A stretch of 22,805 nt of DNA from a virus. The position numbers and the translations under genes are program-made. Shown here piece after piece: positions 1-18,082 of the stretch. Where the stretch lies: IMG/VR virus record IMGVR_UViG_3300030116_007653, positions 1-22,805 of that record; one strand, given 5' to 3'. How positions within the stretch are numbered: position 1 is the stretch's first letter; each line of letters begins with the position of its first letter. The notes beneath the pieces are model-generated. The model did no database searches. It was not told where the DNA came from and saw only the letters and a list, made by a program, of their open reading frames with translations.

Positions 1-1148
1 AATCTACGGTTGATTTCATAGATGATGTCCATGTGTCTTGGTAGAAGAGTCTTAAATAATTTTAAGTCCCACTTCTCCAGTGCTTCTGGTAATAGAGTAT
101 GGTTTGTATATGCAATCGATTTAGTTACAATCTCCCATGCTGCTTCCCATTTAAGGTGCTTCTCATCTACAAGTAGTCTCATCAACTCTGCCACAGCAAT
201 TGCAGGGTGAGTATCATTTAACTGAACCTGCCAGTATTCTGGGAATTGTTCTACAGGTATCTCTCTCTTATCAAGACTTCTTATCATGTCCTGCAGTGAT
301 GCACTCACAAAGAAGTGTTGTTGTTTTAATCTTAGTGCCTTACCTTGGTCTGTACCATCATTTGGATATAGAACCTTAGATATAGTCTCAGAAGACACAC
401 TTTGTTCTACAGACCCCATGTAGTCACCGATATTAAATGCATAGAAATCAAATGTTTCAGTCGCATCTGCTCTCCACAATCTCATTCGATTACAATTATT
501 GACCTTATATCCTAACTGGAGGATGTCATAGGGAACAGCAATTACCTGTTCATCAGGAACCCATCTTACTCTGTAGTTTCCTCTGTCTGAAATATAGTTC
601 TCTACCTTACCACCAAATCCAATCAGCACAGACTCGTCTGGATGGCATAGTTCCCATGGCCAATCTCCGTGTAACCAGTTGTCAGTAACTTCTATCTGTT
701 GATTATTCTTTATCTGCTGCTTAAAAATACCATACTTATATCTTATACCATATCCTGTGGCAGGAACTTTGAGAGATGCCAAAGATTCCATATAACATGC
801 AGCAAGACGACCAAGACCACCATTACCCAATCCTGGTTCTTCTGCCATGTCTAAAACTTGTTCTAAAGTTAAATCATATTCCTGTAGTGCTACCCTTGCT
901 TCTTCTACTATTCCTAGACTGAGTAAATTATTATTGAGTTGAGGACCGATTAAAAATTCTGCCGATAGGTATGCCACCTCTTTCTTAGATGATGGTTTTG
1001 TATCTAACCAATAAGTCATCATCTGATCTCTTACAGCATAACTTAATGCCATATAGAAATCATGTAGAGATGCATTCTCTGGATGTTTACCCAATGTATA
1101 AAATAAACGTTCCTTGATACCAGTAGAAAGGGTGCTAAATTTTTTCAA
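1..1148 (-). CDS. glgP: Glycogen phosphorylase, N-terminal part (runs off left edge)
   Basis: This GT35 enzyme releases glucose-1-phosphate from glycogen using phosphate and pyridoxal phosphate. The window holds about 382 codons of a family usually 800-850 residues long. I read LSAEFLIGP, the glycine-rich EPGLGNGGLGRLAACYMES, GYGIRYKYGIF, LRLKQQHFF, NDTHPA and HTLLPEALE, ending in LPRHMDIIYEINRR. These match phosphorylase in order and spacing. LSAEFLxGPxLxNNL resembles cyanobacterial GlgP. The lysine that binds pyridoxal phosphate lies beyond the edge. The likely start is TTG at 1148, because an in-frame TAA lies three codons upstream and the first in-frame ATG is well inside the protein. It is the last visible gene of the hli transcription unit, 24 bases after the 60-residue gene. 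Family call is very sure; the start is less so, and integrity of the C-terminal half is unknown. Confidence 0.93.
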   Translation of the reverse strand, partial: MKKFSTLSTGIKERLFYTLGKHPENASLHDFYMALSYAVRDQMMTYWLDTKPSSKKEVAYLSAEFLIGPQLNNNLLSLGIVEEARVALQEYDLTLEQVLDMAEEPGLGNGGLGRLAACYMESLASLKVPATGYGIRYKYGIFKQQIKNNQQIEVTDNWLHGDWPWELCHPDESVLIGFGGKVENYISDRGNYRVRWVPDEQVIAVPYDILQLGYKVNNCNRMRLWRADATETFDFYAFNIGDYMGSVEQSVSSETISKVLYPNDGTDQGKALRLKQQHFFVSASLQDMIRSLDKREIPVEQFPEYWQVQLNDTHPAIAVAELMRLLVDEKHLKWEAAWEIVTKSIAYTNHTLLPEALEKWDLKLFKTLLPRHMDIIYEINRR

Positions 1149-1172: not shown

Positions 1173-1355
1173 TTATACTTCATTTTCTTTTCTTTCACCT
1201 TCGTGTGTTCTATTCCTAATAATTATTCGATTGTTTTTATAATCTGCAACAAATTCTAATACGTCATCATTATCCCACATGAGTTCTTCATACATGGCAT
1301 TGAGACGATCCATGTCTTCCCACAGATCATTTACGTGTTCTGAAAATTCTGACAT
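1173..1355 (-). CDS. Small acidic hypothetical protein (60 aa)
   Basis: A 60-residue protein, MSEFSEHVNDLWEDMDRLNA and onwards, rich in Asp and Glu, with no membrane segment or signal peptide. The first 35 residues look helical and could form a short coiled coil. The C-terminal part, with NNRIIIRNR, looks like a basic beta strand. I recognise no family. It lies between the 34-residue membrane peptide (22 bases) and glycogen phosphorylase (24 bases) on the same strand, so it is probably co-transcribed with them. No clear Shine-Dalgarno sequence precedes the ATG. Coding is supported by the fit to the operon and by the absence of a competing frame. Confidence 0.72.
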   Translation of the reverse strand: MSEFSEHVNDLWEDMDRLNAMYEELMWDNDDVLEFVADYKNNRIIIRNRTHEGERKENEV

Positions 1356-1377: not shown

Positions 1378-1482
1378 TTATCTATCTATCATACCAGACA
1401 TCATTATAACTGCAAATGTAGTTATTAATACAGTTCCAGAAAATATTGATATAAACATTAAAAATGTATGATAATAGTTCAT
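1378..1482 (-). CDS. 34-residue single-pass membrane microprotein
   Basis: The protein begins MNYYHTFLMFISIFSG, continues through a hydrophobic stretch rich in Ile, Val and Thr, and ends MMSGMIDR. Almost its whole length would be one transmembrane helix. Its ATG overlaps the TGA of the 126-residue gene (ATGA at 1479-1482), which suggests translational coupling and is the main support for coding. Size and layout recall small single-helix photosystem or cytochrome b6f subunits, but I cannot match it to one, and it has no Hli motif. Function unknown. Confidence 0.6.
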   Translation of the reverse strand: MNYYHTFLMFISIFSGTVLITTFAVIMMSGMIDR

Positions 1483-1859
1483 TTTTTGTAATTGACTTCC
1501 TGCAAACGTTGTACTACTGTTTCTTTCTGTATAGGTGGTACATCGTTTAATCCATTAATATCAAACCATGGTGCTGTCTCCCAATCAAATCCTTCACCAA
1601 ATGTATTGTCTGCCTGTTGTACATACCAATGACATTGAGCATCAGGTATATCAACTGCACATACTGCCCAATCATCAGTCCACTGTGGGACTTGTACATA
1701 TAATACTGGTACATCTGCATGAGCAAGTTCTGGAAATGCTAGAGATAAAAATATGACAGATAAAATTGCCCAGAAGAATGTGGGTATATATTTGACACTC
1801 ATTGGTCTTTTATATACTTCCATGACATCATGGTATGATTGTGACATAAGGTCGCTCAT
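1479..1859 (-). CDS. Hypothetical exported or membrane-anchored protein (126 aa)
   Basis: Residues 26-45 (PTFFWAILSVIFLSLAFPEL) are strongly hydrophobic. They are followed by AHA-D, a plausible signal-peptidase I site near residue 48, so the product is either secreted (periplasm or thylakoid lumen) or anchored. The remaining 78 residues are rich in Trp and acidic residues and contain two cysteines (WAVCAV and DAQCHWY) that could pair in an oxidising compartment. I recognise no family. The start at 1859 overlaps the stop of the 31-residue gene as TAATG, with AGGA about ten bases upstream. An internal Met at residue 20 (1802) would give a more ordinary signal-peptide length. The stop overlaps the next ATG. 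Confidence 0.7.
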   Translation of the reverse strand: MSDLMSQSYHDVMEVYKRPMSVKYIPTFFWAILSVIFLSLAFPELAHADVPVLYVQVPQWTDDWAVCAVDIPDAQCHWYVQQADNTFGEGFDWETAPWFDINGLNDVPPIQKETVVQRLQEVNYKK

Positions 1860-1954
1860 TAAATTAATCCTGCCATTCCTGCTGCTGTACCTATAATTAT
1901 AAAGAATCCAAACTCATACAATGAATAGTATGGGCTATAGAATATTTTCTTCAT
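1859..1954 (-). CDS. 31-residue single-pass membrane microprotein
   Basis: The protein begins MKKIFYSPYYSLYEFGFF and ends in a small-residue-rich hydrophobic tail (IIIGTAAGMAGLI). A short basic and aromatic head followed by one glycine-rich helix resembles single-helix thylakoid proteins, though no Hli motif (ExxNGRxAM) is present. Its ATG overlaps the TGA of the 24-residue gene (ATGA) and its TAA overlaps the ATG of the 126-residue gene (TAATG). Two tight overlaps make a chance open frame unlikely. Function unknown. Confidence 0.62.
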   Translation of the reverse strand: MKKIFYSPYYSLYEFGFFIIIGTAAGMAGLI

Positions 1955-2025
1955 GCGAATGCGATGTTACCTACACCTGTCACGATGTAGAGTGTGACTA
2001 TTGTTGTGAATAAAATGTGTTGCAT
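1951..2025 (-). CDS. 24-residue hydrophobic microprotein
   Basis: The protein begins MQHILFTTIVTLYIVTG and ends GNIAFA, essentially one hydrophobic helix. A strong Shine-Dalgarno sequence, AAGGAG (2030-2035), lies four bases upstream of its ATG. The ATG overlaps the TAA of the 57-residue gene (TAATG), and its own TGA overlaps the next ATG. At this length the conserved role could be either the peptide or a coupling leader for the next gene. Not recognised. Confidence 0.55.
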   Translation of the reverse strand: MQHILFTTIVTLYIVTGVGNIAFA

Positions 2026-2198
2026 TATGCTCCTTGATATACTGGGGTCATGATTCCACCACCCTCATCGTCATCATCATCGTCACCACTCATGGCACGA
2101 AGAAATAATTCAATGAAAACGACAATTCCTATGGGGTAAAGACACCATAGGATTGCCATAAAGGGTGATATTTCATTTGTTGCGGACAACTCTGGCAT
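2025..2198 (-). CDS. 57-residue membrane protein with acidic tail
   Basis: The protein begins MPELSATNEISPF, has one membrane helix at about residues 13-35 (MAILWCLYPIGIVVFIELFL), then a run of six Asp plus Glu (about residues 39-45), a GGG linker and MTPVYQGA. The hydrophobic helix and acidic surface tail suggest a small membrane subunit with one face exposed to solvent. It sits directly after the hli gene (TAA then ATG, no gap) and overlaps the next gene as TAATG. The arrangement implies co-expression with Hli proteins and perhaps a photosystem-related role, but no known family was recognised. Confidence 0.7.
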   Translation of the reverse strand: MPELSATNEISPFMAILWCLYPIGIVVFIELFLRAMSGDDDDDDEGGGIMTPVYQGA

Positions 2199-2806: not shown

Positions 2807-2864
2807 AAGAAACGTAACATAATTATATAGTAAATATAAAGTTTTGTCAAGAAACTTAACATAA
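2807..2864 (-). repeat. Pair of 16-base direct repeats flanking the hli promoter
   Basis: On the minus strand TTATGTTAAGTTTCTT (2864-2849) recurs as TTATGTTACGTTTCTT (2822-2807): 15 of 16 bases agree and the period is exactly 42 bases, about four helical turns. One copy abuts and slightly overlaps the -35 box; the other runs from the last base of the -10 box across the likely start of transcription. A shorter inverted match, TTATGTTAA, lies on the plus strand at 2904-2912. The placement suggests an operator or activator site, but no regulator is known. Confidence 0.6.
2822..2850 (-). promoter_or_regulatory. Sigma-70 type promoter for the hli operon
   Basis: On the minus strand TTGACA (2850-2845) is followed by a 17-base spacer and TATAAT (2827-2822), an exact match to the bacterial housekeeping consensus at optimal spacing. 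Transcription would begin near 2815, about 20 bases before the first hli ATG. Such a promoter would be read by host RNA polymerase without phage factors, which suits early expression. It is the only convincing promoter seen. Confidence 0.8.
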
Positions 2865-16614: not shown

Positions 16615-16931
16615 GCTGCATATTTATCAGAGGGTATAGATGGCCATCTCACAATCATCAATTCACTATCTTCTAAAAATTCTACATCAGAGATTTCATT
16701 TGCTTCGTAAATCCACATGTCACCAGTCTTAAGATGTTTACCAGAAACCATTAACTCACCCTTGATGATGTAGTTTAATTCCTGTGTCACCTTATGATAA
16801 TGAGGAAAAGTTTCACAACCCTTTTCATGTTTATGATGTGCCACCTCAAAAAATGGATTCTTAAAAATTGATGGGTCAAAATCTCCAACAAACCATCCAC
16901 CTTTAAAATTGTTTATGTTTGATTGCTTCAT
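16611..16931 (-). CDS. Small cupin protein
   Basis: A 106-residue cupin. HHKHEKGCETFPHYHKVTQE contains the HxH and Glu ligands of motif 1; YIIKGELMVSGKHLKTGDMW follows as the rest of the barrel. The second motif His is not obvious (it reads EANEISDVEF), so the metal site may be partial. It resembles single-domain cupins in sugar and capsule loci of unknown activity. ATGA overlaps join it to the nucleotidyltransferase-isomerase fusion and to the GDPD-like gene. Confidence 0.72.
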   Translation of the reverse strand: MKQSNINNFKGGWFVGDFDPSIFKNPFFEVAHHKHEKGCETFPHYHKVTQELNYIIKGELMVSGKHLKTGDMWIYEANEISDVEFLEDSELMIVRWPSIPSDKYAA

Positions 16932-18082
16932 TCTAATTCCTGTATTCTAATTTGATGTCTACCACCATCAAAACTATTTTCACGAGCTATTTTTAAATAC
17001 AACTCAAGAGTTTCTTTATCAGTATTCTTAGAGGGTATCGCAAAGAAATTAGCACAGTTATGTCGAATTGACATCTCCATTGCATACTCATCATATATTA
17101 AAGCAGACCTAATTCCTTTATACTTGTTGGCACATATGTTTACACCTTGTCCTGATCTACAGAATCCGAATCCAAAGTGACAATCATTCTCCTGTATTGC
17201 TTTGGATGCTTGAGCTATGTAATCTCTATAATCACAATCTTTGTTTAGGATAGTTCCAAAATCAATGTATTCTAATTTGTTAGATTCTAATATTTCTTTA
17301 AATGTTTCTTTAGCATCAAACCCAGAATGATCAGAGCAAAGTGCTATGGGTTTATCTCCAATTTTTTGAACTACATTATTTTTGTAAAAATGATACTCAT
17401 CAGGAGTTCCAAAGATGTGCATCTTATCTACACTTTCAGTTATTATTTTTTTACCATCTTCTATAAGAACATTATACAATGGTGAAATATAAAATTCGTT
17501 CTTGGTTCTGAGATCTCTTTCAATCATTTCTCTAGCATATTTGCAGAAATCAGATCCTTTTTTAAATCCATATATGCCAACGCATGCATTAGGACTTATA
17601 GCTTTCTTCTCTGCAGTCTTAGTTACATTACCATCCTTATCAAGTTGAGCATAACTATAATTTGTAGAGTTAGATTTAAATGTAAGTATTAAACCATCAG
17701 CATCAAGTGTTTCCATAACATGAGGATCAAACACTGGACGAAATTCTATATCTAAAGTATGAATTACTAGAGGAGCATCATTGTCTATAAGTGATTCAGC
17801 AAATAAACAACTACATACAGATCCGTCTGTAAGTTGATCAAGAACTACAATACTAATATCAGCACCAAACTTTTTTATTAAAAGTTCATCCATGTGATGA
17901 TTATATACATGCTCATCTCTTAACACAAATATTAAATTACAATCTTTATAGTTCAAACAATCTAATGAAATATCAATTAGATGCTTATCTTTAATATTAA
18001 TTATTTGTTTCGGAACTTTAAATCCTTCTTTGATAAATCTACTTCCGAGTCCTGCCATCGGAACAAGAATGTTTGGTTTCAT
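16928..18082 (-). CDS. Nucleotidyltransferase / RpiB-type sugar-phosphate isomerase fusion
   Basis: A 384-residue two-domain protein. Residues 1-235 are a sugar-phosphate nucleotidyltransferase: PMAGLGSRF (8-16) is the nucleotide-binding loop, KVPKQIINI (22-30) carries the conserved PK, TLD (109-111) fits the metal-binding acidic site and NACVGIYGF (165-173) the sugar loop. Residues 244-384 match ribose-5-phosphate isomerase B (RpiB/LacAB): CSDHSGFDAKE (249-259), GFCRSGQGVNICANK (306-320, Cys308 at the catalytic base position), MSIRHNCANFF (337-347) and GGRHQIRI (373-380). I see no stop or frame break between them. Isomerisation of a ketose phosphate and nucleotide activation in one chain would bracket the kinase and phosphatase steps encoded next door. 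Confidence 0.88.
   Translation of the reverse strand: MKPNILVPMAGLGSRFIKEGFKVPKQIINIKDKHLIDISLDCLNYKDCNLIFVLRDEHVYNHHMDELLIKKFGADISIVVLDQLTDGSVCSCLFAESLIDNDAPLVIHTLDIEFRPVFDPHVMETLDADGLILTFKSNSTNYSYAQLDKDGNVTKTAEKKAISPNACVGIYGFKKGSDFCKYAREMIERDLRTKNEFYISPLYNVLIEDGKKIITESVDKMHIFGTPDEYHFYKNNVVQKIGDKPIALCSDHSGFDAKETFKEILESNKLEYIDFGTILNKDCDYRDYIAQASKAIQENDCHFGFGFCRSGQGVNICANKYKGIRSALIYDEYAMEMSIRHNCANFFAIPSKNTDKETLELYLKIARENSFDGGRHQIRIQELE

Follow-up and report, generated by a model that had tools for sequence, protein, structure and literature searches.

Few gene families have multiplied as much in Prochlorococcus and its phages as the HLIPs, whose binding targets in either are, to our knowledge, poorly known. 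In the cyanophage P-HM2, hli is one of the AMGs that are highly expressed as middle genes, and infection in the light induces the hli genes of the host (PMC5082946, which covers hli and other AMGs of P-HM2 and does not discuss the microproteins described here). The closest described phage locus is the hli cluster of P-HM1, P-HM2 and P-SSM4 (T4-GC267/436 region), which holds the same genes in the same order as the locus analysed here: T4-GC437 corresponds to our P57, 438 to P126, 554/594 (in P-HM1/P-HM2) to P31 and 556 to P34. Those records differ in labelling the microproteins 'hypothetical' and in not listing P24, although the gene is present in P-HM1 and P-SSM4; P-HM2 carries the cassette without P24. 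A mechanistic parallel is SliP4, a high-light-induced, single-TM protein of 37 aa that assembles NDH1-PSI/PSII supercomplexes in Synechocystis (PMC12850537). SliP4/HliR1 is likewise a single-TM microprotein tied to high light; it works by scaffolding photosynthetic complexes (PMC12850537, PMC5126843) and differs in not being encoded with hli. It is a precedent for a tiny single-TM scaffold mechanism. In the open-access literature we found nothing relevant on cyanophage ribosome profiling or small proteins beside hli, and no link between phage microproteins and companions of host hli operons.

The window, a 22,805-nucleotide (22.8-kb) viral contig from IMG/VR, derives from a T4-like cyanophage, an ocean virus of cyanobacteria. 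Directly downstream of four hli genes on the same strand (assigned by phrog_178 and phrog_20629) lie five ORFs of 57, 24, 31, 126 and 34 codons, whose order, lengths and junctions agree to the base with the first-pass annotation (Table 1). A coupled chain of five ORFs compares with a maximum of three in 2000 dinucleotide shuffles of the region (ORFs of >=24 codons). The perfect promoter ahead of the hli genes recurs: TTGACA-N16-18-TATAAT is found at the hli start, 0.96-1.34 kb ahead of the P126 gene, in 23 of 56 related loci. A terminator-like site at 2227-2210, just 5' of P57, is a weak consensus match (three such sites in the region, against 0.8 +/- 0.9 expected).

Table 1. Promoter, hli genes and small membrane-protein genes of the window.
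Feature	Position	Strand	Remarks
Sigma-70-type promoter, TTGACA-N17-TATAAT	2822..2850	-	12/12 matches; first hli ATG ~30 bp downstream
hli gene 1, 65 aa	2597..2794	-	phrog_178, E 9e-29
hli gene 2, 41 aa	2472..2597	-	phrog_178, E 9e-13; overlaps hli 1 by 1 base
hli gene 3, 35 aa	2339..2446	-	phrog_178, E 2e-19
hli gene 4, 46 aa	2199..2339	-	phrog_20629, E 2e-22; abuts P57, zero gap
P57, 57 aa	2025..2198	-	start at 2198, directly after hli 4 end at 2199
P24, 24 aa	1951..2025	-	TAATG junction with P57, 1 base common
P31, 31 aa	1859..1954	-	ATGA junction with P24
P126, 126 aa	1479..1859	-	TAATG junction with P31
P34, 34 aa	1378..1482	-	ATGA junction with P126

All five ORFs are protein-coding and under purifying selection. 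In-frame pN/pS was 0.27-0.54 across them, compared with about 0.92 or more out of frame; same-length sets gave 0.31 for P57, 0.43 for P24, 0.32 for P31, 0.27 for P126 and 0.44 for P34, and 0.92-2.2 in shifted frames. When neutral evolution was simulated on the tree of the respective family, none of 300 runs each for P57, P24, P31 and P34 reached the observed pN/pS, and in 1000 simulations the frame stayed open by chance in 0.7% of cases for P57, 9% for P24, 0% for P31 and 0.6% for P34. The pN/pS values and neutral simulations together rule out random overlapping ORFs. Among related phages, represented by 80 loci anchored on P126, the frame was kept in 56 loci for P57, 30 for P24, 57 for P31 and 23 for P34. 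The order hli - P57 - P24 - P31 - P126 - P34 recurs there with fixed overlaps: -1 at P57/P24 (20 of 28 pairs), -4 at P24/P31 (20 of 26), -1 or -4 at P31/P126 (48 of 54) and -4 at P126/P34 (15 of 22). Neither a loss of frame and start conservation nor substitution patterns like those of non-coding DNA, the two outcomes named beforehand as fatal to the coding claim, were seen in these phages.

The expectation that gene callers usually miss proteins this short proved partly right. P24 is unannotated in P-HM1, P-SSM3, P-SSM4, P-RSM3, MED4-213 and S-SSM4, and P31 in S-SSM4, P-SSM3, P-RSM3 and MED4-213, but homologues of P57, P126 and P34, as well as P31 in P-HM1/2, are annotated. Likewise, the description of four proteins with a single hydrophobic segment each was correct as to the segment, although the count is five, because P126 has one ahead of its predicted exported domain; that of P31 is borderline (Kyte-Doolittle 1.60).

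Picocyanobacterial homologues exist for P57, P31 and P126, which marks these three as host-derived, but were not found for P24 and P34 in the Prochlorococcus genomes searched. P57 consists of a single TM helix with an AILWC(F/L)YP motif followed by an acidic tail, DDDDDD-EGGG-xMTPVYQGA, and is homologous to T4-GC437/phrog_7843 and to microproteins of picocyanobacterial hosts. Homologues were detected in 92 of 101 Cyanobiaceae genomes (E 1e-3 or better); roughly a third of these matches are full-length and the remainder cover mainly the acidic tail. The P57 slot in phages holds either of two host types, P57a in the window and a P57b-like protein in loci L007 and L009-L011, as expected if both were functionally equivalent. 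P31 is a membrane microprotein with EFxFFxxxGxxAGxxG; of 41 Prochlorococcus genomes, 34 encode a homologue.

A C-terminal tag of the P57 type (acidic run, GG(G), x-M-x-P-V-x) also occurs on many otherwise unrelated single-TM microproteins of Cyanobiaceae, for example DNEDDDDEGGGMMQPVYLAATD and DSDDDSGGGGLMQPVLVPIP and at host loci L262, L266, L272, L274, L277, L278 and L280. This acidic-GG-MxPV tag looks like a common C-terminal module. In its exact form the tag is not ubiquitous, as the strict DDDD-x-GG DNA pattern matched only the P57 gene across two host and four phage genomes.

Host chromosomes keep P57 and P31 in or beside hli operons. Prochlorococcus MIT 9302 and several other high-light Prochlorococcus carry an operon hli35-(hli44)-P57b-P31b-hli42, which shares the hli-P57-P31 order with the phage and in which P57b overlaps the preceding hli by 1 base, much as phage P57 abuts hli. 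The host operon differs in lacking P24 and P34, in having its P126 homologue elsewhere and in using P57b where the window has P57a. In other Cyanobiaceae the order of the two microprotein genes is reversed (hli ... P31 - P57a). Overall, 18 of 29 host P57a loci have hli within ~1.5 kb, compared with 6 hli in 608 kb of control host sequence (binomial P ~3e-14 even at a 7% background, a value that overstates independence because the host loci come from related genomes), and P31 was found within the fetched 3 kb at 13 of the 29. As hosts maintain these genes inside or next to hli operons, in no fewer than two orders, association with HLIPs is the best-supported property of P57 and P31, and, given its recurrence in host and phage genomes alike, the two are best read as 'HLIP companion microproteins'.

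The linkage might instead be positional only, with small host genes of unrelated membrane or stress functions gathered in a recombination hot spot near psbA. Such regions of cyanophage genomes do swap many small genes (PMC3037559), and cassette content varies, P24, P31, P126 and P34 each being missing from some phage cassettes. Core host copies also exist apart from hli: those of P31 sit near apt, often away from hli, and P57a copies in high-light Prochlorococcus often do not adjoin hli. In phage genomes, moreover, hli genes adjoin many different things, which counts against reading a functional tie into the linkage. Yet P57, P31 and hli are repeatedly associated on host chromosomes too, in at least two gene orders, and the start/stop overlap junctions are conserved, so that we consider a purely positional association unlikely.

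The microproteins could also be divergent low-molecular-mass subunits of PSI, PSII, b6f or NDH-1 (such as PsaJ or Psb30) which would take the place of the host's own during infection. Their size, single TM helix and hli/psbA neighbourhood fit this; the best PDB profile match of phage P57 was PsaJ (E 0.19 and 0.46), and P34 touched Psb30 at E 2.5. None of these matches is significant, however, and Pfam, NCBIfam and PDB profile searches returned no significant match of any member to known PSI, PSII, b6f or NDH-1 subunits. No member matched PsaJ or a photosystem family in Pfam, P31 yielded chance matches only, and the assignment of P57 as PsaJ, marginal even at E = 0.19, was rejected once adding host homologues to the profile had abolished the match. 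PsaJ and other small photosystem subunits are thus like the microproteins in size and single TM helix, without significant profile similarity; the likeness to PSII or b6f small subunits drawn in the first-pass annotation was not borne out, and we regard subunit replacement as quite improbable. Of the accompanying idea that the proteins modify photosystems or other membrane complexes, a role in the photosynthetic membrane is favoured by linkage to hli, seen in phages and also, for P57 and P31, in host genomes, but a resemblance to known subunits is not. Lysis proteins (holin, antiholin, spanin-like) or other membrane disruptors are very improbable: tiny TM proteins are typical of holins, and P24 and P34 were found in phages only among the genomes searched (Prochlorococcus for hosts), but many living hosts carry P57 and P31, both are linked to hli, the hli genes of a relative are middle and not late (PMC5082946), and no holin family matched.

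P126, the largest member, carries a conserved cytosolic segment (YHDVMEVYKRP), a TM/signal segment ending in A-H-A and a predicted exported domain (VQVPQWTDDWAVCAVDIPDxxCHWYV..DNTFGEGFDWExAPW) that retains two invariant cysteines and many invariant aromatic residues. The domain is widespread in Prochlorococcus, where 384 places matched (the best 80 of the 384 were read). Judged by its sequence, P126 is a copy, re-tailored at the N-terminus, of a protein conserved in picocyanobacteria. Its exported orientation is likely because the TM segment ahead of the host domain ends in an A-x-A motif. In MIT 9302 the host gene adjoins pheT, not hli, and in Synechococcus phages the homologue lies by psbD/psbA or elsewhere, without the microproteins. 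Phage records list P126 (T4-GC438) as a 'carboxylesterase'. We rejected this assignment, as the protein has no Pfam or NCBIfam hydrolase match and no GxSxG, and no serine is invariant among 40 homologues. AlphaFold models were poor (pLDDT 51 and 57 in two runs), below use for a fold search.

The TM microprotein P24 (MQHILFTTIVTLYIVTGVGNIAFA) and P34, a single TM helix with the motif MF..(S/T)GT..T.xxVxMM and a homologue of T4-GC556, each had no credible match in 61 Prochlorococcus genomes (0/61), the set on which their absence from hosts rests; as a positive control, the same profiles matched phages at E 1e-9 to 1e-20. A second scan, which started from P24 and so did not depend on P126, retained 80 loci from 101 relatives; hli stood no more than 600 bp upstream in 68 of 71 and P57 in 65 of 71, and P31 was present in 64 of 79 and P126 in 55 of 79. 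In P-HM1 (167926-168015) and P-HM2 (T4-GC555/556) the P34 homologue adjoins T4-GC555, which in P-HM2 is annotated as a quinone-oxidoreductase-like membrane protein (TQO), a neighbour that hints at electron transport.

Elsewhere in the window, directly after the cassette, a 60-aa soluble acidic ORF (1173-1355, minus strand; phrog_27706/728) belongs to a type that sits inside the hli/P24 cassettes of other phages (for example L309, L311 and L319). It is followed at 3-1148 (minus strand) by a glycogen phosphorylase gene cut by the contig end, with 382 N-terminal aa present (PF00343, E 6e-128); among 50,697 phage records, the sole other cyanophage with this enzyme is S-SCSM2R (70% identity). A single ORF at 16928-18082 (minus strand), within a large sugar-nucleotide/LPS-type gene cluster, joins an N-terminal nucleotidyltransferase-like domain (weak PF00483) to a C-terminal RpiB sugar isomerase domain (PF02502).

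At gene level, then, coding capacity, purifying selection, junctions, host homology and hli linkage are all well supported. We propose, with a probability of about 0.6, that the cassette copies a host operon for HLIPs and that its microproteins serve the HLIPs as accessory membrane subunits in photosystem assembly or repair. The biochemical role we infer from gene linkage, and with it we presume co-transcription, a lumenal topology, physical association with HLIPs and the target complex. One strong promoter would drive a single message for four HLIPs and five small membrane proteins, the latter made in similar amounts through translational coupling. P57 and P31 would be copies of host microproteins that are also encoded in or beside host hli operons, P24 and P34 phage additions, and P126 a host-derived domain with a phage-added cytosolic tail and membrane/signal segment, so that it probably lies on the lumenal side of the thylakoid or in the periplasm. 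The thylakoid membrane is where the microproteins would most likely act together with HLIPs, serving as accessory or scaffold subunits. They would dock the HLIPs, which bind chlorophyll, on intermediates of photosystem II assembly or repair (or on supercomplexes of electron transport) and thereby keep photosynthesis going until lysis. More tentatively, P57 and P31, with the phage-only P24 and P34, might be dedicated partners in an undescribed multi-protein HLIP complex of marine picocyanobacteria, of which phages would carry the whole set plus two subunits of their own.

Well-studied cyanophage reference genomes thus hold strongly selected, unannotated genes of 24-31 codons, and the widely copied 'carboxylesterase' label on P126 is unfounded. 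Conserved beside HLIP genes and common to host and virus, the microproteins are concrete candidates for HLIP partners.
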